IMG/VR virus record: IMGVR_UViG_3300034063_000636
Span: 1 to 64,000 of that record
DNA: 64,000 bases
Source: a virus
Reading direction: 5' to 3' (one strand)
How positions within the stretch are numbered: the stretch's first letter is position 1; each line of letters begins with the position of its first letter. Shown here piece after piece: positions 2,444 through 32,560 of the stretch. A model generated the notes under the pieces. It was not told the DNA's origin. It saw only the letters and a program-made list of their open reading frames with translations, and made no database searches. Both the position numbers and the translations under genes were made by a program.

Positions 2444-3102
2444 AAGTAAAATTAGTATCATACAGTAAACCAGTTCTCGAGGGATTGGATACACCAACGG
2501 ACCTTGTAGCCTATTGCGCAAGAGTGTCCAATCCCTCCAATCAAATTAACTCTGAAACAGCAGAGAAGTTGATCAAGTATTTGATCAAGCATCAACATTG
2601 GTCACCATTAGAAATGGCAACCATGTGTTTAGAAATTGAAACAACACGAGATATTGCGCGTCAGATTTTGCGTCATCGTAGTTTCTCGTTTCAAGAATTC
2701 TCACAGCGTTATGCTGACCCAACTAAAGATTTAGAATTTGTCACTCGTGAAGCACGACTTCAAGATCCGAAGAATCGTCAGAATTCCATTTCTGAAGGTG
2801 TTGATGTCATGCTTCAATACGAATGGGACAAACGTCAACAAGACTTGATCGAACAAGTCAAGATACACTATAATTGGGCAAGCAATAATGGTATTGCTAA
2901 AGAACAAGCGCGAGCCCTTCTTCCTGAAGGATTAATTATGTCTCGCATGTATATGAGCGGGTCTTTGCGTTCATGGATTCACTATATACAACTCCGAAGC
3001 GGTAACGGCACTCAGAAAGAACATATGGAAATTGCGAAAGAGTGCGCAAAGGTTATTGCTGAGGTATTCCCTCTTTCAACACAATTTATCGCAACAGAAT
3101 AA
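2440..3102 (+). CDS. thyX: Flavin-dependent thymidylate synthase ThyX
   Basis: ThyX methylates dUMP to dTMP using methylenetetrahydrofolate and FAD/NADPH. The signature RHRxxSxxxxSxRY is present intact at residues 78-91 (RHRSFSFQEFSQRY). The 220-residue length fits the family. The start is GTG 2440, overlapping the previous stop; no better ATG exists in frame. It lies directly upstream of ribonucleotide reductase, forming a dNTP supply pair that many T4-like marine phages carry. Confidence 0.93.
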   Translation: MKVKLVSYSKPVLEGLDTPTDLVAYCARVSNPSNQINSETAEKLIKYLIKHQHWSPLEMATMCLEIETTRDIARQILRHRSFSFQEFSQRYADPTKDLEFVTREARLQDPKNRQNSISEGVDVMLQYEWDKRQQDLIEQVKIHYNWASNNGIAKEQARALLPEGLIMSRMYMSGSLRSWIHYIQLRSGNGTQKEHMEIAKECAKVIAEVFPLSTQFIATE

Positions 3103-3115
3103 TAAGGAGCAAATG

Positions 3116-5002
3116 ATGGCGACAAGACTTCCGTCCATTTATCAAGATTTCATTCACATTTCACGCTATGCTCGTTTTAATGACGAACTTGGTCGCCGCG
3201 AAACATGGGATGAAACTGTAGACCGTTATATTAATTTCTTTAAAGAAAAAACAAATAACAATCAACTAGTTCCATGGGAAGAATTGCGCACAGCAATTAT
3301 TAATTTGGAAGTCATGCCATCAATGCGTTGCTTGATGACTGCTGGTCCTGCTTTGGAAAAAGATCAAGTGGCTGGATATAATTGCTCCTATGTCGCCATT
3401 GATAATACAAAAGCATTTGACGAAATCATGTACATCCTTATGTGCGGCACTGGCGTTGGTTTCTCTGTTGAATCAAAGTATACAAACAAATTGCCAGAAG
3501 TTCCAGAAGAACTTCATGAGACAGATACAACTGTTGTGATTGCTGATTCCAAGATTGGTTGGGCATCTGCTTATCGTGAAATCATTTCATTGCTATATTC
3601 TGGCAAGATCCCAAAGTGGGATGTCAGCAAGGTTCGCCCAGCAGGTGAGCGTTTGAAGACATTCGGTGGTCGTGCTTCTGGTCCAGAACCATTGGTCGAT
3701 CTAATTAAATTCACTCTTAATATTTTCCATAAGGCACGTGGTAGAAAACTATCAACGTTGGAATGCCATGACATCGTATGTAAAATTGCTGATATTGTTG
3801 TGTGTGGCGGCGTTCGTCGCTCTGCTCTCATCTCCCTCACTGACCTCAACGACGACCACTTGCGTCATGCTAAGAGCGGAGAGTGGTGGACACATAATGG
3901 TCAACGAGCACTTGCTAATATCTCGGCTGTGTATGACAAGCGAGTAGATATGGATACATTCATGAACGAATGGCATGCACTATACATGTCACGTTCAGGC
4001 GAGCGTGGCATTTTCTCACGTGCTGCTTCACAGGCTGTTGCTGAGAAGAATGGTCGTCGTGATCCAAAGCATGAGTTTGGCACAAACCCATGTTCTGAAA
4101 TTATCTTGCGTCCATTTGAGTTCTGTAATCTTTCAGAGATTGTTGTTCGCGCAAATGATGACGTAGAGTCATTGAAGCGCAAGGCTCGTCTCGCTACAAT
4201 CATTGGTACGTTGCAATCAACACTTACAGATTTTCGCTACATCAATAAGAAGTGGAAGAATAATTGTGATGAAGAGCGTTTGCTTGGTGTTTCTCTTACA
4301 GGTATCTGCGACAGCAAACTTCTAAATAAGCCGTCACAGAAACTGGCAGATGCACTTGATGAGATCAGACTTCATTGTGTTGAAACAAATAAGGAATTCG
4401 CCGACTCTCTTGGCATTCCACAGTCGGCTGCAATTACTTGCGTCAAACCTTCTGGCACTGTTTCACAATTGGTGGATTCCGCATCAGGCATTCACCCACG
4501 TTATTCTCAGTTTTATGTCCGTCGCGTAAGAGCAGACATGAAAGATCCTCTTGCTCAGTTTATGATTGACAAGGGATATAAGGCTGAAGAAGATTTTTAC
4601 AGTAAGTCAAACTGGGTATTCAGTTTCCCAATGAAGGCACCAAAGAACTCTGTCACTCGCCATGATATGACTGCGATTGAACAGTTGGAACTTTGGAAGA
4701 TTTACCAGGATCACTGGTGTGAACACAAGCCTTCGATTACAGTATATGTTGGTGATGATGAGTGGATGGAAGTTGGTGCATGGGTTTATAAGAACATTTC
4801 TGTTCTATCAGGTGTTTCTTTCCTCCCACGTGACAATGGCTCATATCGTCAAGCACCTTACGAAGAAATTGATGAAGCCAAGTATAACGAACTTCTTGCG
4901 CTCCAAAACGTTGATATCAACTGGGTGGAGTTTATGGAAGAAACGGATACAACAACTTCAGCAAAAGAACTTGCATGCTCTGCAGGTGTATGTGAAATCT
5001 AA
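3116..5002 (+). CDS. nrdJ: Class II (B12-dependent) ribonucleotide reductase
   Basis: This enzyme reduces ribonucleotides to deoxyribonucleotides using adenosylcobalamin. The single chain (about 628 aa) resembles monomeric class II reductases: N-terminal PSMRCLMTAGPALEKD and YNCSYVAID, an active-site NPCSE motif, CVKPSGTVSQLVDSASGIH, and a redox-active C-terminal cysteine pair (CSAGVCEI). The frame is open further upstream into thyX, but AAGGAG at 3104-3109 points to ATG 3116 (spacing 6) or 3113. Use of B12 means the enzyme works with or without oxygen but needs host cobalamin. It sits between thyX and a lipoprotein gene. Confidence 0.9.
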   Translation: MATRLPSIYQDFIHISRYARFNDELGRRETWDETVDRYINFFKEKTNNNQLVPWEELRTAIINLEVMPSMRCLMTAGPALEKDQVAGYNCSYVAIDNTKAFDEIMYILMCGTGVGFSVESKYTNKLPEVPEELHETDTTVVIADSKIGWASAYREIISLLYSGKIPKWDVSKVRPAGERLKTFGGRASGPEPLVDLIKFTLNIFHKARGRKLSTLECHDIVCKIADIVVCGGVRRSALISLTDLNDDHLRHAKSGEWWTHNGQRALANISAVYDKRVDMDTFMNEWHALYMSRSGERGIFSRAASQAVAEKNGRRDPKHEFGTNPCSEIILRPFEFCNLSEIVVRANDDVESLKRKARLATIIGTLQSTLTDFRYINKKWKNNCDEERLLGVSLTGICDSKLLNKPSQKLADALDEIRLHCVETNKEFADSLGIPQSAAITCVKPSGTVSQLVDSASGIHPRYSQFYVRRVRADMKDPLAQFMIDKGYKAEEDFYSKSNWVFSFPMKAPKNSVTRHDMTAIEQLELWKIYQDHWCEHKPSITVYVGDDEWMEVGAWVYKNISVLSGVSFLPRDNGSYRQAPYEEIDEAKYNELLALQNVDINWVEFMEETDTTTSAKELACSAGVCEI

Positions 5003-5243: not shown

Positions 5244-5273
5244 AAAGGGGACTTCGGTCCCCTTTTTTATTTT
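5244..5273 (+). terminator. Rho-independent terminator with UUCG loop
   Basis: AAAGGGGAC, loop TTCG, GTCCCCTTT, then a T-rich tract. The same GGGGAC-TTCG-GTCCCC core occurs at 12311, 25730 and 36056. Confidence 0.9.
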
Positions 5274-6511: not shown

Positions 6512-7052
6512 TTATAGTTTAACTTCTCCATGCGTCTGTGTCAGCAGAGACAAAACATTCTCAAATTCGTTTTTCTATTTTTTAAACGATCGTAAAACAG
6601 TACAAGGAAAGTTTCACAATATTCTTGGCGAACAACACGAAGAATATCTAACCGACCAAGAGCGTTATGAGAATATTGCTTCTTGGGTTCTGGCTATTCT
6701 TGCAGACTTTGACAAGAAAGATATTGTGATCATGATTGAAGATTATTCTTTCGGATCAAAAGGAAAGGTTTTTAATCTTGCAGAAAACTGTGGCATTCTT
6801 AAGTATATGCTGTACAAGAACGGATACAGATTCTTTACAGTGCCTCCAACAGTGGTTAAGAAGTTTGCAACAGGCAAAGGCAATGCTACAAAAGATAAGA
6901 TGTATGAAGCGTTTGTAAACGATACTTTTGTTGATTTACATAGTATAATATCTCCTACGACAAAACTTGGATCACCAACAACAGATATCGTAGATGCTTG
7001 GTACATTGCTCGTTATATGATTGAACAACATTCTAAAAAGGAAGCTGTATGA
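6492..7052 (+). CDS. RuvC-like Holliday junction resolvase
   Basis: An RNase H-fold nuclease that would cleave recombination and replication junctions before packaging, a job done by gp49 endonuclease VII in T4. The start VVGIDYS puts the first catalytic Asp at residue 7, as in RuvC. The second acid is in IMIEDYSFGSKGK, and the C-terminal acids lie in TTDIVDAWYIARY. From ATG 6492 it has 186 residues; ATG 6480 would add four. It overlaps the zinc-ribbon gene upstream and the UDP-xylose synthase downstream (ATGA). Confidence 0.8.
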   Translation: MIVVGIDYSLTSPCVCVSRDKTFSNSFFYFLNDRKTVQGKFHNILGEQHEEYLTDQERYENIASWVLAILADFDKKDIVIMIEDYSFGSKGKVFNLAENCGILKYMLYKNGYRFFTVPPTVVKKFATGKGNATKDKMYEAFVNDTFVDLHSIISPTTKLGSPTTDIVDAWYIARYMIEQHSKKEAV

Positions 7053-7987
7053 AAAATATTTTAGTGACTGGTGGTGCAGGTTTTGTTGGTAGTCACTTAT
7101 GCGAAAGATTGATTGAACAAGGACATAAAGTTTATTGCGTTGACAATTTTTATACTGGCGCAGTAAAAAATGTTGCTTCAATTGTCAAGCATCCAAACTT
7201 TCGCTTTTATGAGCATGATGTGACAAGCAGCATTTTTCGTGATTACTTTTCAACTAGACCTATTGATATCATTTACAATCTTGCTTGTCCTGCTTCGCCT
7301 GTGCATTATCAGCGTGATCCAATCTTTACAACAATGACTTGTGTGCTTGGTGCTCATAATGTATTAGAAATTGCTCGCAAGACAAAGGCTCGTGTTGTTC
7401 AGGCTTCCACCTCTGAGGTGTATGGTGATCCAGATATTCACCCACAACCAGAAACATATAATGGCAATGTGAATCCAATTGGTCCACGTGCATGTTATGA
7501 TGAAGGCAAACGTGCGGCAGAGACGTTATTCTTTGATTACAGGAGAATGTATGATGTCAACACTGGTGTATTCCGTATTTTCAACACTTATGGACCACGC
7601 ATGGCAAAGAACGATGGGCGAGTTGTTTCTAACTTCATCGTCGCTGCTCTTGCTGATGCGAATCTAACAATTCACGGAGCAGGAATGCAGACAAGATCAT
7701 TCTGCTATGTTGATGATCTTGTAGAAGGTATACAAAAATTTGCGAATTCCAAAGCGATTGGTCCAATTAATCTTGGCAATCCTGGGGAGTTTACTGTTGA
7801 TGAACTTGCGACTATAATTATACAGAAGGTAAATAAAGGTTATAAGCAATATGTTGAGCGAACTATAGACGACCCTCAACAACGCAAGCCAGATATTACA
7901 TTAGCAAAATCAGTTTTAAATTGGGAACCAAAAGTTGCGTTGTCGGAGGGATTAGATAAAACAATCGATTACTTCAGGAGCGTATAA
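7049..7987 (+). CDS. uxs: UDP-glucuronate decarboxylase (UDP-xylose synthase)
   Basis: A short-chain dehydrogenase/epimerase family enzyme that converts UDP-glucuronate to UDP-xylose with NAD. The Rossmann motif GGAGFVG lies near residue 8. NLACPASPVHYQ, the STSEVYGDP strand and the catalytic YDEGKR (YxxxK) match the UXS subgroup rather than generic epimerases. At 312 residues it is full length for the bacterial enzyme. With the UDP-glucose dehydrogenase at 21005 the phage encodes the route from UDP-glucose to UDP-xylose, a donor for the glycosyltransferases at 22823-24552. It is embedded among replication and hypothetical genes, overlapping both neighbours. Confidence 0.9.
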   Translation: MKNILVTGGAGFVGSHLCERLIEQGHKVYCVDNFYTGAVKNVASIVKHPNFRFYEHDVTSSIFRDYFSTRPIDIIYNLACPASPVHYQRDPIFTTMTCVLGAHNVLEIARKTKARVVQASTSEVYGDPDIHPQPETYNGNVNPIGPRACYDEGKRAAETLFFDYRRMYDVNTGVFRIFNTYGPRMAKNDGRVVSNFIVAALADANLTIHGAGMQTRSFCYVDDLVEGIQKFANSKAIGPINLGNPGEFTVDELATIIIQKVNKGYKQYVERTIDDPQQRKPDITLAKSVLNWEPKVALSEGLDKTIDYFRSV

Positions 7988-8953: not shown

Positions 8954-8963
8954 TTTGCATCTA

Positions 8964-8988
8964 TATAAATGCTCCACCGAAGGAGCAT
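8964..8988 (+). promoter_or_regulatory. TATAAATG box and hairpin holding the ribosome site
   Basis: TATAAATG (8964-8971) resembles a T4 late box. ATGCTCC (8969-8975) and GGAGCAT (8982-8988) form a perfect 7 bp stem with a 6-base loop. The AAGGAGC ribosome site of the gene at 8991 lies in the loop and 3' arm, so longer transcripts could mask it, while transcripts starting at the late box would lack the 5' arm. Confidence 0.45.
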
Positions 8989-8990
8989 AA

Positions 8991-9767
8991 ATGGCGAATT
9001 ATAAGTCAATTTTTATATCTGATGTGCATCTAGGTTCTAAAGGATGCAAAGCCGAACTCCTTTCTGATTTTCTGAAACATAATAGTTGCGAAAATCTATT
9101 TTTAGTTGGTGACGTCATTGACGGCTGGAGACTCAAAAGAAAATTTTTTTGGCAGCAATCACATACTGATGTGATTCGAAAGATTCTTAAAGCTGCAAAA
9201 AACGGCACAAATGTTAAGTACATCGTCGGAAATCACGACGATTCTTTTCGCGATCTTCTTCCATACGACATTCACTTTGGCAACATTGAACTTGTAAACC
9301 AATGTCGCTATAACGCAGTGAACGGTAAAAGATATATGGTAATTCATGGAGATCTTTTTGATGCAGCATTAGCAACAAAACTTTCTTGGCTTTATCACGT
9401 TGGTGATTGGTTTTATGACATTTTATTATCAATCAATAATGGTTTGAATAGACTACGCAGCCGTTTAGGTATGTCATATTGGAGTTTGAGTGCATATCTA
9501 AAGAATAAAACAAAAGAAGCAGTCGCATTTATGTCTGACTTCGAAATTTTAATTACAGATTACTGTAGAAAGTATAATGCGCATGGCGTTATCTGTGGAC
9601 ATGTTCATAAAGCAGCAATCAAAGAGATCAATGGCATTGAGTATATGAACGACGGTGACTGGGTTGAGTCCTGCACAGCATTAGTCGAGCATCATGATGG
9701 TACTTGGGAAATTGTGAATTATCTTCACAATATAAACAAGCATAATAAAATTGAAAAATTTTTGTAA
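8991..9767 (+). CDS. LpxH-like UDP-2,3-diacylglucosamine hydrolase
   Basis: A calcineurin-type metallophosphoesterase of the COG2908 group, whose bacterial members split UDP-2,3-diacylglucosamine to lipid X and UMP in lipid A synthesis. Metal-binding motifs occur in order: SDVHLGS near residue 10, GDVIDGW, GNHDD, HGDLFD and GHVHKA. Length 258 is usual. A basic, amphipathic middle (LSWLYHVGDWFYDILLSI) suits membrane contact. It lies 25 bases before the TonB-dependent receptor gene and probably shares its mRNA, so both may act on the outer membrane. Other phosphoesterase substrates cannot be excluded from sequence. Confidence 0.8.
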   Translation: MANYKSIFISDVHLGSKGCKAELLSDFLKHNSCENLFLVGDVIDGWRLKRKFFWQQSHTDVIRKILKAAKNGTNVKYIVGNHDDSFRDLLPYDIHFGNIELVNQCRYNAVNGKRYMVIHGDLFDAALATKLSWLYHVGDWFYDILLSINNGLNRLRSRLGMSYWSLSAYLKNKTKEAVAFMSDFEILITDYCRKYNAHGVICGHVHKAAIKEINGIEYMNDGDWVESCTALVEHHDGTWEIVNYLHNINKHNKIEKFL

Positions 9768-9792
9768 TATAACCTTAATAGGGAGATAATAA

Positions 9793-12297
9793 ATGAAGAA
9801 ATTTCTAGCAATATTGGGAATTGTGATGTCACAAATTTCCTATGCAGAACCATTAGAAGAAGTCACTATCACAAGCATTCGTGATTCAGCAGCAGCCGCT
9901 GTTGAGCAGCAAAAGAATGCTGATGGCGTAACTAATGTTGTCGCTGGTGATACAGTAGGCAAACTTCCAGATTCAAATATCGCCGAAGCACTACAACGTG
10001 TTTCAGGTATTTCAATTCAACGCGATCAAGGCGAAGGTCGTTATATCAATGTTCGTGGTGCTCCAAGTGAGTTCACAAACATCACAGTCAATGGCGTAAG
10101 TCTACCTGCTCCTGATCCATTTACAAGAGCAATTGACCTTGACGTTGTTCCTGCTAACATTGCTGACACACTAGAAATCAGCAAGACATTGCTTCCAAGT
10201 CAAGAAGCAGATAGCATTGCTGGCGCAGTCAATATTAAAACTAAATCAGCATTCAAGAAGCCAGGACTACAATTCAATGCTGAACTAGGTGGCTCTTATA
10301 ATCAGTTTGGTGGCACACATGATGTACGTGCATCATTCAGCCTATCAAATACAATGTTGAATGATACACTCGGTGTTTCTCTTTCAACAAGTTATGGTAA
10401 AACTGATCGCCAATTAGATAACATTGAAACAGCATGGGCACGTTATAGTGTTCCTGTTAATTTAGTTCCTGTTCCTGGCAATCCATTCAGCATACCACCT
10501 ATTTTGTTGGAATCTGTATTCGCTCCAGTCGAAACATTGTTCAAAGACTATGACACAGTTCGTGAAAGAATTGCTGTGACTGGCAATGTTGAGTATCGTC
10601 CAAACGATGATACCAGTGTTTATGTCAACTCAACATGGTCACGCTATGTTGATGACGAATGGCGCAATCGTTTGAGCATTCTTTACAGCGAAGGTAAGAT
10701 CGTTGCTGGTGCTACAGATAGCAAAGCAAGTTTCACATCACCTCGTATTGAAAAGCAAGTGCGTCATCGCATCATCGAAAATCATATCATTGCTAACGAA
10801 GTTGGTTTGAAGCAAAATTTAAGTGTTGGTAAACTTGACGCTAGTGTTTCAATGGCAACAGCAAAGCAAGATTATCCACAACGCGATGAGTTATTATTCC
10901 GCAGTTCATTGCGTCCAACAATCAGTTACGATTATAGCAAGAATCCAAACGAGCCATACATTAGTTTGTTTGATACAAAAGAACATCTAAACGTTGGTGC
11001 GTATGCTTTCCGTGAAAACACATATCGTGATGCTGATACAAATGAAGATACATTGGCAGCCAAAGTAGATTATGAAGTTGGCATGTATAAGTTTGGTGTG
11101 TTGTATGCTGATAGCGAAAGAACAACAGACGGTAGTCGTTGGAGAAATCGCAGTTCAACAGCGGCGCCAGCAACTAATCTTGCTGGATTCTTATCAACGA
11201 ATGTAAGCAAGAACTATGGTTATGATCTTGGCTTCAAGTTGAATACAGAATTAGCCGATGCTTATTATGGTGCTACAAAGGCACTATCACCACCAAGAGT
11301 AGAGCAATCATTGACAGAAGATTATAATGTTGATGAAAAGGTTGCTGCTGCTTATGGTATGATGAAGTATAAGGCAGATAAACTCAATGTGATTGCTGGC
11401 GTTCGTGTAGAAAATACAAAAGACGTTGGTAGCGCACCAGTTTATAATACTGTAACAGGTCGTATCACTAGCCAAGTTGGTGAAAAGGATTACACAAATG
11501 TATTCCCTAACCTAACAGTTCGCTATGACTATAATGACAATCTAGTTGGTCGTTTCGCATTGACTCGCTCACTCGCAAGACCAAACTTTGATGACATTGT
11601 TCCAAGAGCAATTGAAAGTCAAGAAGGAACACAACTAGTTGTTACAACTGGCAATCCTGACTTGAATCCAACACTATCAAACAATGTTGATATGTCAGTT
11701 GAATATTATTTCGGTGATATTGGTCTAGCCAGCGTAAGTGTGTTCTACAAAGACCTCAAAGACTATAACTACGTCTTGAGAACAAATGGAACATACATTG
11801 GCAGTCAAGCAATCCTAGTGCGCCCAGAAAACGCACCAAAGGGCGAAATTACTGGTGTTGAAGTAAGTTATCAACAGCAACTTGATAATGGTCTGGGTGT
11901 ATTTGCGAACTACACAATCGCTGACGCAAGCATTGATGTGGGTCGTAACTACGCTGGTCGTAGCAAGTTCCCACTTCCAGGACAAAGTGATTACACTGGT
12001 AACATTGCTGTGTTCTACGAAAGGGGTAAGATTAGCGCAAGACTTTCATACACGGATCGTGGTGAGTTCTTGAACGAAATCAATGCTGACGATGGCGCAC
12101 TTGATCTATACTGGGACGGTCGCGGTCAGTTAGACTTCACTGGTGGTTACAAAGTCAACAAGCAAACTGAACTTGTAATTGAAGCCAAGAATCTAACTAA
12201 CAGTGCTGGCGTTCGTTACTATGGATCCAAGTCTCGTGTCTATGAATATGAGAAGTTTGGATACAGCATCTATCTGGGTGCGAAATATAAAATGTGA
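9793..12297 (+). CDS. TonB-dependent outer-membrane receptor
   Basis: An outer-membrane beta-barrel transporter for scarce ligands, powered by TonB. It has a signal peptide (MKKFLAILGIVMSQISYA, cleavage before EP), a TonB box just after it (LEEVTITSIR), and a plug with KLPDSNIAEALQRVSGISIQ and the GRYINVRG motif typical of the Caulobacter/Xanthomonas-type receptor group. The barrel runs about residues 160-834 with alternating beta strands (for example RFALTRSLARPNFDDIVPRA). The frame is uninterrupted and 834 residues is full length. It ends in YKM rather than the usual terminal aromatic. GGGAGA lies before the start. It shares the phage's own terminator type, which argues that it is a resident gene. 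I know of no standard phage role; receptor replacement or superinfection control is inference. Confidence 0.93.
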   Translation: MKKFLAILGIVMSQISYAEPLEEVTITSIRDSAAAAVEQQKNADGVTNVVAGDTVGKLPDSNIAEALQRVSGISIQRDQGEGRYINVRGAPSEFTNITVNGVSLPAPDPFTRAIDLDVVPANIADTLEISKTLLPSQEADSIAGAVNIKTKSAFKKPGLQFNAELGGSYNQFGGTHDVRASFSLSNTMLNDTLGVSLSTSYGKTDRQLDNIETAWARYSVPVNLVPVPGNPFSIPPILLESVFAPVETLFKDYDTVRERIAVTGNVEYRPNDDTSVYVNSTWSRYVDDEWRNRLSILYSEGKIVAGATDSKASFTSPRIEKQVRHRIIENHIIANEVGLKQNLSVGKLDASVSMATAKQDYPQRDELLFRSSLRPTISYDYSKNPNEPYISLFDTKEHLNVGAYAFRENTYRDADTNEDTLAAKVDYEVGMYKFGVLYADSERTTDGSRWRNRSSTAAPATNLAGFLSTNVSKNYGYDLGFKLNTELADAYYGATKALSPPRVEQSLTEDYNVDEKVAAAYGMMKYKADKLNVIAGVRVENTKDVGSAPVYNTVTGRITSQVGEKDYTNVFPNLTVRYDYNDNLVGRFALTRSLARPNFDDIVPRAIESQEGTQLVVTTGNPDLNPTLSNNVDMSVEYYFGDIGLASVSVFYKDLKDYNYVLRTNGTYIGSQAILVRPENAPKGEITGVEVSYQQQLDNGLGVFANYTIADASIDVGRNYAGRSKFPLPGQSDYTGNIAVFYERGKISARLSYTDRGEFLNEINADDGALDLYWDGRGQLDFTGGYKVNKQTELVIEAKNLTNSAGVRYYGSKSRVYEYEKFGYSIYLGAKYKM

Positions 12298-12306
12298 GGT
12301 TGGGTG

Positions 12307-12334
12307 AAAAGGGGACTTCGGTCCCCTTTTTCTT
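12307..12334 (+). terminator. Rho-independent terminator with UUCG loop
   Basis: AAAAGGGGAC, loop TTCG, GTCCCCTTTT, then T-rich. It ends the LpxH-like/receptor transcript ten bases after the receptor stop. Confidence 0.92.
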
Positions 12335-12408: not shown

Positions 12409-12621
12409 ATGAAACAATATTACGAAGTTTACGAAAACGCCATAGTCAACCACCCGATTACAGGAGCGCGAGTCAGAGGGAATAAATTAATTCTCACGAC
12501 CAAGAGCCGTACGAAGGCACTAGACCTATACGCTAAAAACGAAAAGACGCGCTGGGTCGAAGAAATCACCGATTACGGTAGCGGCGAAAGCACCGATATT
12601 ATCACGGGAGTTTACGCATAA
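12409..12621 (+). CDS. Hypothetical protein, 70 aa
   Basis: MKQYYEVYENAIVNHPITGA begins a small basic protein with an acidic, glycine-rich C-terminus. There is no ribosome site, and the promoter -10 lies six bases upstream, so leaderless translation is predicted. It is the first gene of an accessory block with its own promoters. No family recognised. Confidence 0.65.
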   Translation: MKQYYEVYENAIVNHPITGARVRGNKLILTTKSRTKALDLYAKNEKTRWVEEITDYGSGESTDIITGVYA

Positions 12622-28464: not shown

Positions 28465-29220
28465 TTGTCTAAGAAGAAAAATGGAAACTCAAACAGTTAC
28501 ATAGAAATCACTTCAGAGGTTACTGAGAAGAAACCGCCGCGAATCAAAGCAGCGGAATTAAAAAAGTTCGAACCACTCACACCAAATCAAGCAAAGTTTT
28601 TCGAGGCATATGCTCGTGGAGATTACTTCACGATGCTCTGTGGTTCAGCAGGTACTGGTAAATCATTCATTGCCTGTTATAAAGCCATTGAAGAAGTCCT
28701 CGATCGTTCGTCACCATTTCATCGCATCGTGATTGTACGTTCTGCTGTTCAGTCTCGTGATCTTGGTTTTACTCCAGGATCCGTAGAAGAAAAGATGAGT
28801 CTGTATGAACAACCTTATATGCAGATCTGTCATACGTTGTTCGGTCGTCGTGATGCATATGACGCAATGAAAGAATGTGGTCGTATTGAATTCATCTCTA
28901 CTAGTTTCATTCGCGGTATGAGTTTCGATGATGCTGTCATCATCGTCGACGAATGTCAGAATATGACTTGGGAAGAATTGACGACAATTATGACTCGAGT
29001 TGGTCATCGTTCGAAGATTATCTTCTGTGGTGATTACAAACAAACAGATCTTTATCGCAATACCAAAGACAAGAGTGGACTTCGAAAGTTCCACGAAGTT
29101 GCCAAGACTATGAACTCGTTTACGAATATCGAATTCACAACAGAAGATATCGTTCGCAGTAGTCTTGTCAAAGACTTCTTGATTGCTGTTGAGAAATATG
29201 AAAAGCAAGAAAATACTTGA
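28465..29220 (+). CDS. phoH: PhoH-like ATPase
   Basis: A P-loop ATPase of the PhoH family, common in marine phages; likely an RNA/DNA helicase-like or RNA-metabolism enzyme. Walker A is GSAGTGKSF near residue 60; Walker B is VIIVDECQNMTW. RIVIVRSAVQSRDLGFTPGS and CGDYKQTDLY are family motifs. Length 251 is usual. The start is TTG 28465 after GGGGGGAT; no in-frame ATG fits. It overlaps the promoter of the nuclease gene at its 3' end. Confidence 0.9.
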   Translation: MSKKKNGNSNSYIEITSEVTEKKPPRIKAAELKKFEPLTPNQAKFFEAYARGDYFTMLCGSAGTGKSFIACYKAIEEVLDRSSPFHRIVIVRSAVQSRDLGFTPGSVEEKMSLYEQPYMQICHTLFGRRDAYDAMKECGRIEFISTSFIRGMSFDDAVIIVDECQNMTWEELTTIMTRVGHRSKIIFCGDYKQTDLYRNTKDKSGLRKFHEVAKTMNSFTNIEFTTEDIVRSSLVKDFLIAVEKYEKQENT

Positions 29221-32062: not shown

Positions 32063-32221
32063 ATGTCTGAAGTGAAACAATATCCATGCGCATGCGGACG
32101 CAGTCCGACTGGCTATTGCATTGGTTTGCATGCAATGACATCTGAGCAATACAAGAAGTATCTTGAAGAGCAACAGAAATCATTGAATGAACAGACAAAG
32201 CCACAGTTTCTAGTTGATTAA
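32063..32221 (+). CDS. CDGSH-like miniprotein, 52 aa
   Basis: CACGRSPTGYCIGLHAMTSE carries a C-x-C-x2-S-x4-C-x-G-x-H pattern, similar to the CDGSH iron-sulfur motif but with IGLH in place of DGSH. A helical tail completes it. GGGAG lies six bases before the ATG. It could bind a 2Fe-2S cluster or zinc. Its position after the peroxide-defence genes makes a redox role attractive, but it may be unrelated. It ends just before the tmRNA acceptor piece. Confidence 0.6.
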   Translation: MSEVKQYPCACGRSPTGYCIGLHAMTSEQYKKYLEEQQKSLNEQTKPQFLVD

Positions 32222-32240
32222 TGGTTGTAAACTGACAATT

Positions 32241-32283
32241 AAAGGTGTTCTGGACTCGGGTTCGACCCCCGACATCTCCACCA
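32241..32283 (+). ncRNA. ssrA: Two-piece tmRNA, acceptor piece (5' end approximate)
   Basis: T-arm TCGGG-TTCGACC-CCCGA (32256-32272), acceptor strand CATCTCC (32273-32279), discriminator A and encoded CCA at 32281-32283. The strand pairs with GGGGATG at 32328. The acceptor half precedes the coding half, so the gene is permuted; the 45 bases between would be removed. The mature 5' end is not visible. Confidence 0.88.
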
Positions 32284-32327
32284 AATGCCCATCACCTCTG
32301 CATTAATGTACGTGGTGGCTATCTTAT

Positions 32328-32502
32328 GGGGATGAATTTGGCTTCGACAGGGCAAGTAATAACCTGACAGCAACCAGTGAGGCGACTGACTTAATCAGCG
32401 CAAACAAAGTAAACGCAAACGACGATTACTTCGAAATGGCTCTCGCTGCTTAATTGCAGTATGAGATTACCAGAGTTGACCGCTTGGTAACAGAAAGGTC
32501 TG
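32328..32502 (+). ncRNA. ssrA: Two-piece tmRNA, coding piece
   Basis: Begins GGGGATG followed by AATTTGGCTTCGACA, the conserved tmRNA 5' segment. The resume codon GCA lies at 32415, and the tag frame encodes ANDDYFEMALAA with TAA at 32451-32453, a typical ClpXP-type ALAA end. It tags and rescues stalled ribosomes. A terminator follows. Confidence 0.9.
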
Positions 32503-32534
32503 GGTTGGTGGTGCGAACCACCAACCTTTTCTTT
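32503..32534 (+). terminator. Terminator of tmRNA
   Basis: GGTTGGTGGT, loop GCGA, ACCACCAACC (10 bp perfect), then TTTTCTTT. Confidence 0.93.
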
Positions 32535-32560
32535 CCACTGCAATAATGGAGGCAACTAAC

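Follow-up and report, generated by a model that had tools for sequence, protein, structure and literature searches.

We found that a T4-like phage encodes a full-length TonB-dependent receptor (TBDR), and the genes that surround it and its relatives indicate that this is probably an auxiliary gene for phosphorus acquisition that came from a host and has long been resident in phages; its expression, export, substrate, transport and benefit to the phage are what we infer from sequence. What narrows down the function is the set of genes beside the receptor gene and not the receptor protein. The stretch of DNA analysed here (the window) comprises bases 1-64000 of a 108,214-base IMG/VR record, which may be incomplete. 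T4-like genes in the record include those for head closure, tail tube, baseplate hub/lysozyme, gp25- and gp6-type wedge proteins, gp32 and a gp61-type primase. No named phage relatives were found at the DNA level; among named phages, those with the closest gp6-type wedge protein (about 41% identity) are Methylophilales phage Melnitz and Pelagibacter phage Mosig.

An intact receptor gene resident in phage genomes

The receptor is encoded by an unbroken frame of 834 codons that starts with ATG and has its stop inside the coordinates listed in Table 1. The Pfam models for the plug (PF07715; residues 41-131; 50.5 bits against a cut-off of 23.9) and for the barrel (TonB_dep_Rec_b-barrel, PF00593; residues 372-801; 126.7 bits against a cut-off of 27) both match the product, and the NCBIfam family TIGR01782 matches it from residue 21 to residue 834 (572.7 bits against a cut-off of 310). 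Reading of the sequence predicts the signal peptide MKKFLAILGIVMSQISYA, with cleavage before EP, and the segment LEEVTITS aligns with LEEVVITA of bacterial homologues at what appears, from sequence and alignment, to be the position of the TonB box. Moreover, an AlphaFold model of the protein (pLDDT 81, pTM 0.79) has the TBDR fold, the nearest folds in the PDB being those of the siderophore, haem and PQQ transporters PfeA, PhuR, YncD/PqqU and FepA. All of the features by which we assigned the protein to the TBDRs (signal peptide, TonB box, plug, barrel and family score) were thus found together; PHROGs holds no family for it. The intact frame, the TIGR01782 score and the T4-like genes of the record bear out the proposal of an earlier note on this DNA that a T4-like phage carries a full-length TBDR, and the Pfam and NCBIfam matches and the alignment with bacterial homologues agree with its description of the signal peptide, TonB-box-like motif and plug as intact. 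(Note that the 834 residues given there as the length of the barrel are those of the entire protein; a barrel is nevertheless present.) As had also been proposed, the gene ends in a UUCG terminator that is used elsewhere in the genome, exact copies of GGGGACTTCGGTCCCC being present at positions 5247, 25730 and 36056 of the window, where the chance expectation is 0.

Table 1 Features of the window that bear on the receptor locus
Feature	Position	Strand	Basis or remark
NAD-dependent nucleotide-sugar epimerase/decarboxylase-like enzyme	7049..7987	+	family and domain matches
CTATATAA element and hairpin (TGCTCC...GGAGCA)	8961..8988	+	upstream of PlcP-like gene
PlcP-like metallophosphoesterase, 258 aa	8991..9767	+	intact calcineurin-type metal motifs; LpxH-related, far below LpxH cut-offs
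Junction where L002, L004 and L005 carry an Agt-like glycosyltransferase gene (347 aa), absent from the window	9720..9843	+	contig comparison
TonB-dependent receptor/transporter, 834 aa	9793..12297	+	frame, family and domain scores, alignment, AlphaFold model
Signal peptide, residues 1-18 (predicted)	9793..9846	+	read from sequence and alignment
Phage-specific fast-changing stretch, residues 223-247	10459..10533	+	comparison of window and L002
UUCG-type hairpin and T run, terminator	12311..12326	+	three further exact copies in the window
Small gene, right side of variable slot, conserved in sister phages	12409..12621	+	83% identical in L134
PhoH-domain gene	28570..29181	+	domain match

The receptor gene was found at the same place in four further IMG/VR contigs (L002, L003, L004 and L005), with 95-98% amino-acid identity over the mature part; both flanking junctions are seen in L002, the left junction in L004 and L005, and the right junction in L003. 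We entertained the idea that the gene was placed in a phage contig by faulty assembly, or stems from contaminating bacterial DNA that became joined to one, as the record is of metagenomic origin and the 92-98% DNA identity between contigs is patchy around the gene. The identical gene order in these separate contigs, a GC3 of 29.7% (compared to 26-54% in other genes of the window and 70-90% in the nearest bacterial relatives) and the terminator shared with other phage genes of the window make such an origin exceedingly improbable, and a chimeric assembly was rejected on the synteny in the four contigs. In addition, comparison of the mature receptor between the window and L002 gave a dN of 0.0193 and a dS of 0.1315 (dN/dS about 0.15), which argues that the mature protein is preserved by purifying selection. 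Thus the common junctions in independent contigs, the phage-like GC3 and the signs of purifying selection uphold the earlier view of the gene as an intact resident free of contamination.

The DNA encoding the signal peptide could not be aligned between phage copies that are otherwise 92-98% identical, and this region is probably a recombination boundary. Because, in addition, dS between the window and L002 is far lower for the receptor gene than for the adjacent plcP-like gene, where it is saturated, the mature part of the receptor has probably been transferred between phage lineages recently. Residues 223-247, a phage-specific insertion relative to the bacterial homologues, have changed at 12 of 25 positions when compared to L002 (dN 0.34, dS 0.29, dN/dS about 1.2), the rest of the protein being at least 96% identical. 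Homology places this insertion probably in extracellular loop 2. (Note that two copies are too few for calling positive selection, and that recombination is a possible alternative.)

The PlcP-like neighbour and exchange of the receptor slot

Directly upstream of the receptor gene, and in the same orientation, lies a gene whose product has calcineurin-like metal motifs and is PlcP-like, with a predicted phospholipase C activity on PE and PG. (LpxH, an enzyme of lipid A synthesis, was rejected as an identity for this product, the two LpxH models giving 43 and 35 bits where 134 and 190 are required; the gene is tied to GT4 and PstS genes instead.) Bacterial relatives of PlcP strip phosphate head groups from the membrane phospholipids of phosphorus-starved cells, and plcP paired with a GT4 glycosyltransferase gene (agt) serves lipid remodelling under phosphorus limitation (PMC4796936, PMC9239053). 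Since the receptor gene directly follows the plcP-like gene and is co-oriented with it, the two probably form a small phosphorus-scavenging cassette. The ribosome-binding GGAG that serves the plcP-like gene, just ahead of the start codon, lies within the hairpin after the CTATATAA element, and the hairpin would be expected to sequester it; a similar element with a GGAG-holding hairpin is present upstream of plcP in L002, L129, L134 and L157, and in L002 upstream of the TBDR gene too. The epimerase/decarboxylase-like enzyme listed in Table 1 could supply a sugar nucleotide, although this link to the locus is weak.

In contigs L002, L004 and L005, the 347-residue GT4 gene overlaps the 3' end of plcP and separates plcP from the receptor gene. 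The encoded protein keeps the GTcp/Agt signatures GRVSKEKN and FPSKVDT(F/Y)G (the latter with Asp where Glu is usual) together with the active-site His and the Trp, the signature residues being those described in PMC8231724. When compared to GTcp, the phage enzyme retains the His-Asp dyad, the two UDP-sugar motifs and the His and Trp of the DAG site, and has Lys in place of Arg163; over the viral pairs, the motifs are GRVxxEKN, FPSxxDT(F/Y)G, HIATEGxLG, TS(Y)HTxFPE and Trp. A homologous bacterial pair is present in the Sphingomonadales genome L089 (plcP 46% and GT4 about 40% identical), and a GT4 gene beside the receptor gene of L007 encodes a protein 37% identical to the phage GT4.

A scan of IMG/VR for plcP-like genes gave 112 encoding places, 80 of which were fetched and are covered by the counts that follow. 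The genes adjoining plcP in these 80 viral loci encode an Agt-like GT4 (48 loci), PstS (18), a Porin_5 protein (12) or a TBDR (3). An operon of plcP with a putative lipid glycosyltransferase gene occurs in 48 viral loci and in the bacterial genome L089, and is absent in the window. (Pairs of plcP and agt that overlap occur often in T4-like viral contigs, for example L134, L146, L157, L165 and L182, and in certain viruses a GT2-type glycosyltransferase gene takes the place of the GT4 gene behind plcP, as at L193:6746-7471 and L158:6268-6987.) The open-licence PMC papers searched did not include one on phage plcP.

In L129, L134, L135 and L143, the plcP genes of which are 88-92% identical to that of the window, genes for PstS (PF12849, 173 bits in L134) and a Porin_5 protein occupy the receptor slot, and next to them in L134 and L143 comes the small gene that the window has after its receptor gene. 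The order of the cassette is plcP-TBDT (for TonB-dependent transporter) in the window, plcP-agt-TBDT in its relatives and either plcP-pstS-porin or pstS-porin-plcP-agt in sister phages; pstS, porin, plcP and agt are found all together in L165. Moreover, the cultured pelagiphage Mosig has a plcP homologue (51% identity) that is divergent from pstS and 150 bases away from it. Three of these arrangements argue that the receptor contributes to phosphorus acquisition: a plcP-like gene precedes the receptor gene, viral plcP genes adjoining those for an Agt-like GT4, PstS or a porin; PstS and Porin_5 genes fill the receptor slot of syntenic sisters; and plcP lies next to pstS in Mosig. (An Hsp20-like gene and a gene for a DNA-polymerase-like protein of 848-850 residues lie near phosphorus or receptor genes in L135, L146, L165 and L080; such neighbours suggest a hot spot for host-derived genes.)

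Phytase-linked bacterial relatives and a second phage lineage

The best bacterial relatives of the receptor (56-59% identity) come from proteobacterial MAGs, several of which are lake or reservoir MAGs by name. A gene for a PF02333 (beta-propeller) phytase lies directly downstream in all four of the nearest bacterial receptors that have downstream sequence, and within 2.5 kb in 38 of the 58 bacterial loci with enough flank, being downstream in Sphingomonas and divergent in Brevundimonas. (The high-GC contigs L071 and L072, with an alphaproteobacterial-type receptor beside phytase, were counted as bacterial-like.) In the tree, the phage receptor groups with six freshwater-type proteobacterial rows (support 98/98), that is, with phytase-adjacent bacterial receptors. 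A TBDT beside phytase in Citromicrobium has been assigned to phytate (PMC3400609), and a phytase-TBDT pair of Flavobacterium is induced by phosphate depletion (PMC8115612). Both the phytase linkage of the nearest bacterial receptors and these published roles, like those of plcP-agt cited above, argue for phosphorus as what the receptor helps to acquire.

Should the place of the receptor gene beside plcP be accidental, the protein might instead import an oligosaccharide or a similar source of carbon or another nutrient for the infected cell. TIGR01782 is a broad family that is related to characterised sugar TBDTs (PMC3400609), its members outside the clade of the receptor are often sugar transporters, and about a third of the bacterial loci (20 of 58) have no phytase nearby, all of which runs counter to phosphorus acquisition. 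The nearest relatives of both phage lineages (the second is described below) are nevertheless phytase-linked, and phosphate genes replace the receptor gene in the slot of other phages, so that we hold uptake of such a nutrient to be quite unlikely. A nutrient that had been put forward in the earlier note is cobalamin, for use by the phage's class II ribonucleotide reductase, and a gene resembling such a B12-dependent enzyme is indeed present at 3032-5002. The receptor, however, groups with phytase-linked TIGR01782 receptors and has no match to the BtuB family, BtuB being a distant match in fold as are dozens of other TBDTs; a cobalamin receptor was accordingly dismissed, and this use is highly improbable. 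Thus, of the three options offered in that note, feeding of the infected cell fits best, with cobalamin giving way to phosphorus as the nutrient indicated by the phytase-linked relatives and by the plcP/agt/pstS locus.

An alignment-based scan revealed further viral TBDRs with about 25-29% identity to the receptor of the window. In ten contigs the gene of this second lineage sits closely behind gp23, the gene for the major capsid protein (PF07068), and in most of the second-lineage receptors a ParB-like segment (PF08857; 24.5-25.5 bits, just above the cut-off of 23.6) separates the signal peptide from the TonB box. In the tree, where some branches are long and the deep joins uncertain, each of the two phage lineages is a clade of its own with full support. 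Among the bacterial receptors found, the one closest to the second lineage (45-46% identity) is encoded by L117, a 1.2 Mb gammaproteobacterial genome in which a phytase gene and then a gene for a PHO4 phosphate transporter follow directly downstream. That a second, separate phage lineage is also nearest to a phytase-linked bacterial receptor further supports a role in phosphorus acquisition. (Receptors with the ParB-like segment, an unusual domain arrangement, were seen in the IMG/VR contigs L073-L078, L080-L082 and L084-L087, most of them directly after gp23. In gp23-adjacent phages, a gene for a reprolysin-like metallopeptidase lipoprotein is convergent with the TBDR gene, as at L075:12373-14022 and in L073 and L077. 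The 20-kb TBDR-bearing viral contig L079, which is not T4-like in look, also encodes a CHASE2-adenylate/guanylate cyclase.) Unannotated matches to the receptor, 24-28% identical, are present in "Bacteriophage sp." faecal records.

Phages often use TBDRs as their receptors, and a receptor made by the phage might flood the outer membrane, compete for BAM or TonB, or displace the receptor of the host, and so keep out TBDR-using phages and colicin-like toxins. Such superinfection exclusion would be consistent with the position of the second-lineage gene after gp23, which suggests late high expression, and with residues 223-247, the rapid change of which between two phage copies that are otherwise conserved could point to evasion or exclusion instead of phosphorus. 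The FhuA-Llp and FhuA-T5 complexes are also among the PDB matches of a model of the ParB-TBDR fusion (a low-confidence model, pLDDT 67, with which the fold search gave TBDRs only). A mere blocker, however, would need neither the TonB-box-like motif nor the plug nor the many other receptor residues that are conserved, and exclusion predicts neither that both phage lineages group with phytase-linked receptors nor that pstS and porin genes turn up in the same slot; we therefore regard it as unlikely. Two options of the earlier note, a block of superinfection by occupation of TonB and replacement of the host's own receptor, are of this kind; they gained no support from the analysis but may apply.

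Proposed role during infection and comparison with known systems

If the receptor serves phosphorus acquisition, then the Sec and BAM machinery of the host would export it and insert it in the outer membrane during infection, and host TonB would energise it for the import of phytate (inositol phosphates), or of an organic phosphate like it, as far as the periplasm. In that compartment, phosphate would be freed by phosphatases or phytase of the host and then taken up by host inner-membrane transporters for use in phage DNA synthesis. Counter to a role in phosphorus acquisition, no gene for phytase (PF02333), PstS or TonB was found in the phage record, which may be incomplete; all of the downstream uptake steps would therefore depend on the host, and the receptor, lacking PF02333 beside it, is a relative of the phytase-TBDT unit rather than a complete one. 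Likewise, Pho-box-like sites did not occur above chance, although phage promoters may be used instead of Pho-box regulation. (The T4 consensus late promoter TATAAATA showed no enrichment.) A further point against the proposal is that the PlcP, Agt and TBDT activities in phages are predicted ones. In its favour are the low dN/dS of the mature receptor and the presence in the same genome of a gene for PhoH, which is common in T4-like phages of phosphorus-poor waters (PMC9004378). We consider it an evenly balanced question whether an exchangeable programme for phosphorus starvation, acting at the level of the cell envelope, is present in many T4-like phages; in it, PlcP and Agt would swap host phospholipids for phosphorus-free glycolipids and so liberate phosphate, and either PstS with a porin or a phytate-type TBDT would import phosphorus from outside. 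Were this so, the host membrane would be a phosphorus store for phage DNA.

The phage receptor has the same architecture as the phytase-linked TBDTs of bacteria (Citromicrobium JL354, Fjoh_1368 beside the phytase Fjoh_1367, and the Sphingomonas and Brevundimonas loci); it is 43-59% identical to those of the proteobacterial loci fetched and groups with them in the tree. It differs in being phage-borne, with no phytase gene adjacent or elsewhere in the record, in having the insertion at residues 223-247 and in lacking bacterial insertions near residues 428 and 697. Similarly, the phage plcP-GT4 pair resembles the PlcP-Agt operon of phosphorus-limited bacteria in being co-oriented, usually overlapping and intact in its metal motifs, and is set apart by being phage-borne, with predicted activities, by the Lys for Arg163 substitution and, in the window, by the missing agt. 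The phage PstS and PhoH genes of T4-like cyanophages and pelagiphages share the purpose proposed here; PstS, which fills the receptor slot in sisters and adjoins plcP in Mosig, acts on phosphate in the periplasm, whereas the compounds handled by the receptor would be larger organic phosphates, and its place of action the outer membrane.

TBDRs have been assigned to viruses before, namely TBDR domains in gut viruses of Bacteroides and Alistipes, which are largely temperate (PMC8857322), a TBDR annotation in pelagiphage Skadi (PMC10504331) and a "TonB-dependent receptor SusC" of an uncultured marine phage (BFVD). These belong to different families and viruses and, as far as excerpts of the two papers go, the gut-virus and Skadi receptors have no phosphorus context. 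The open-licence PMC papers searched yielded no precedent for an outer-membrane TonB-dependent transporter as a phage phosphorus gene, or for its link to plcP-agt. Another phage protein that acts at a TonB-dependent receptor is Llp of T5, a superinfection-exclusion lipoprotein; Llp is small and blocks the receptor of the host, whereas an entire receptor is encoded here.

Phage phosphorus auxiliary genes are, as a kind, already known; to our knowledge, the products of those described so far (pstS, phoA and phoH) work in the periplasm or in the cytoplasm. With a TonB-dependent transporter of its own, a phage would also control what the host actively imports through the outer membrane, and organic phosphorus may be among the compounds imported. 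The alternation with pstS-porin and the link to plcP-agt lead to the testable claim that phages draw phosphorus from host membrane lipids and from dissolved organic phosphorus, and Mosig, with plcP beside pstS, is a cultured isolate in which part of this claim could be tested. The window also holds a tmRNA gene at 32191-32544 (ARAGORN), with the tag ANDDYFEMALAA, and 15 tRNA genes.
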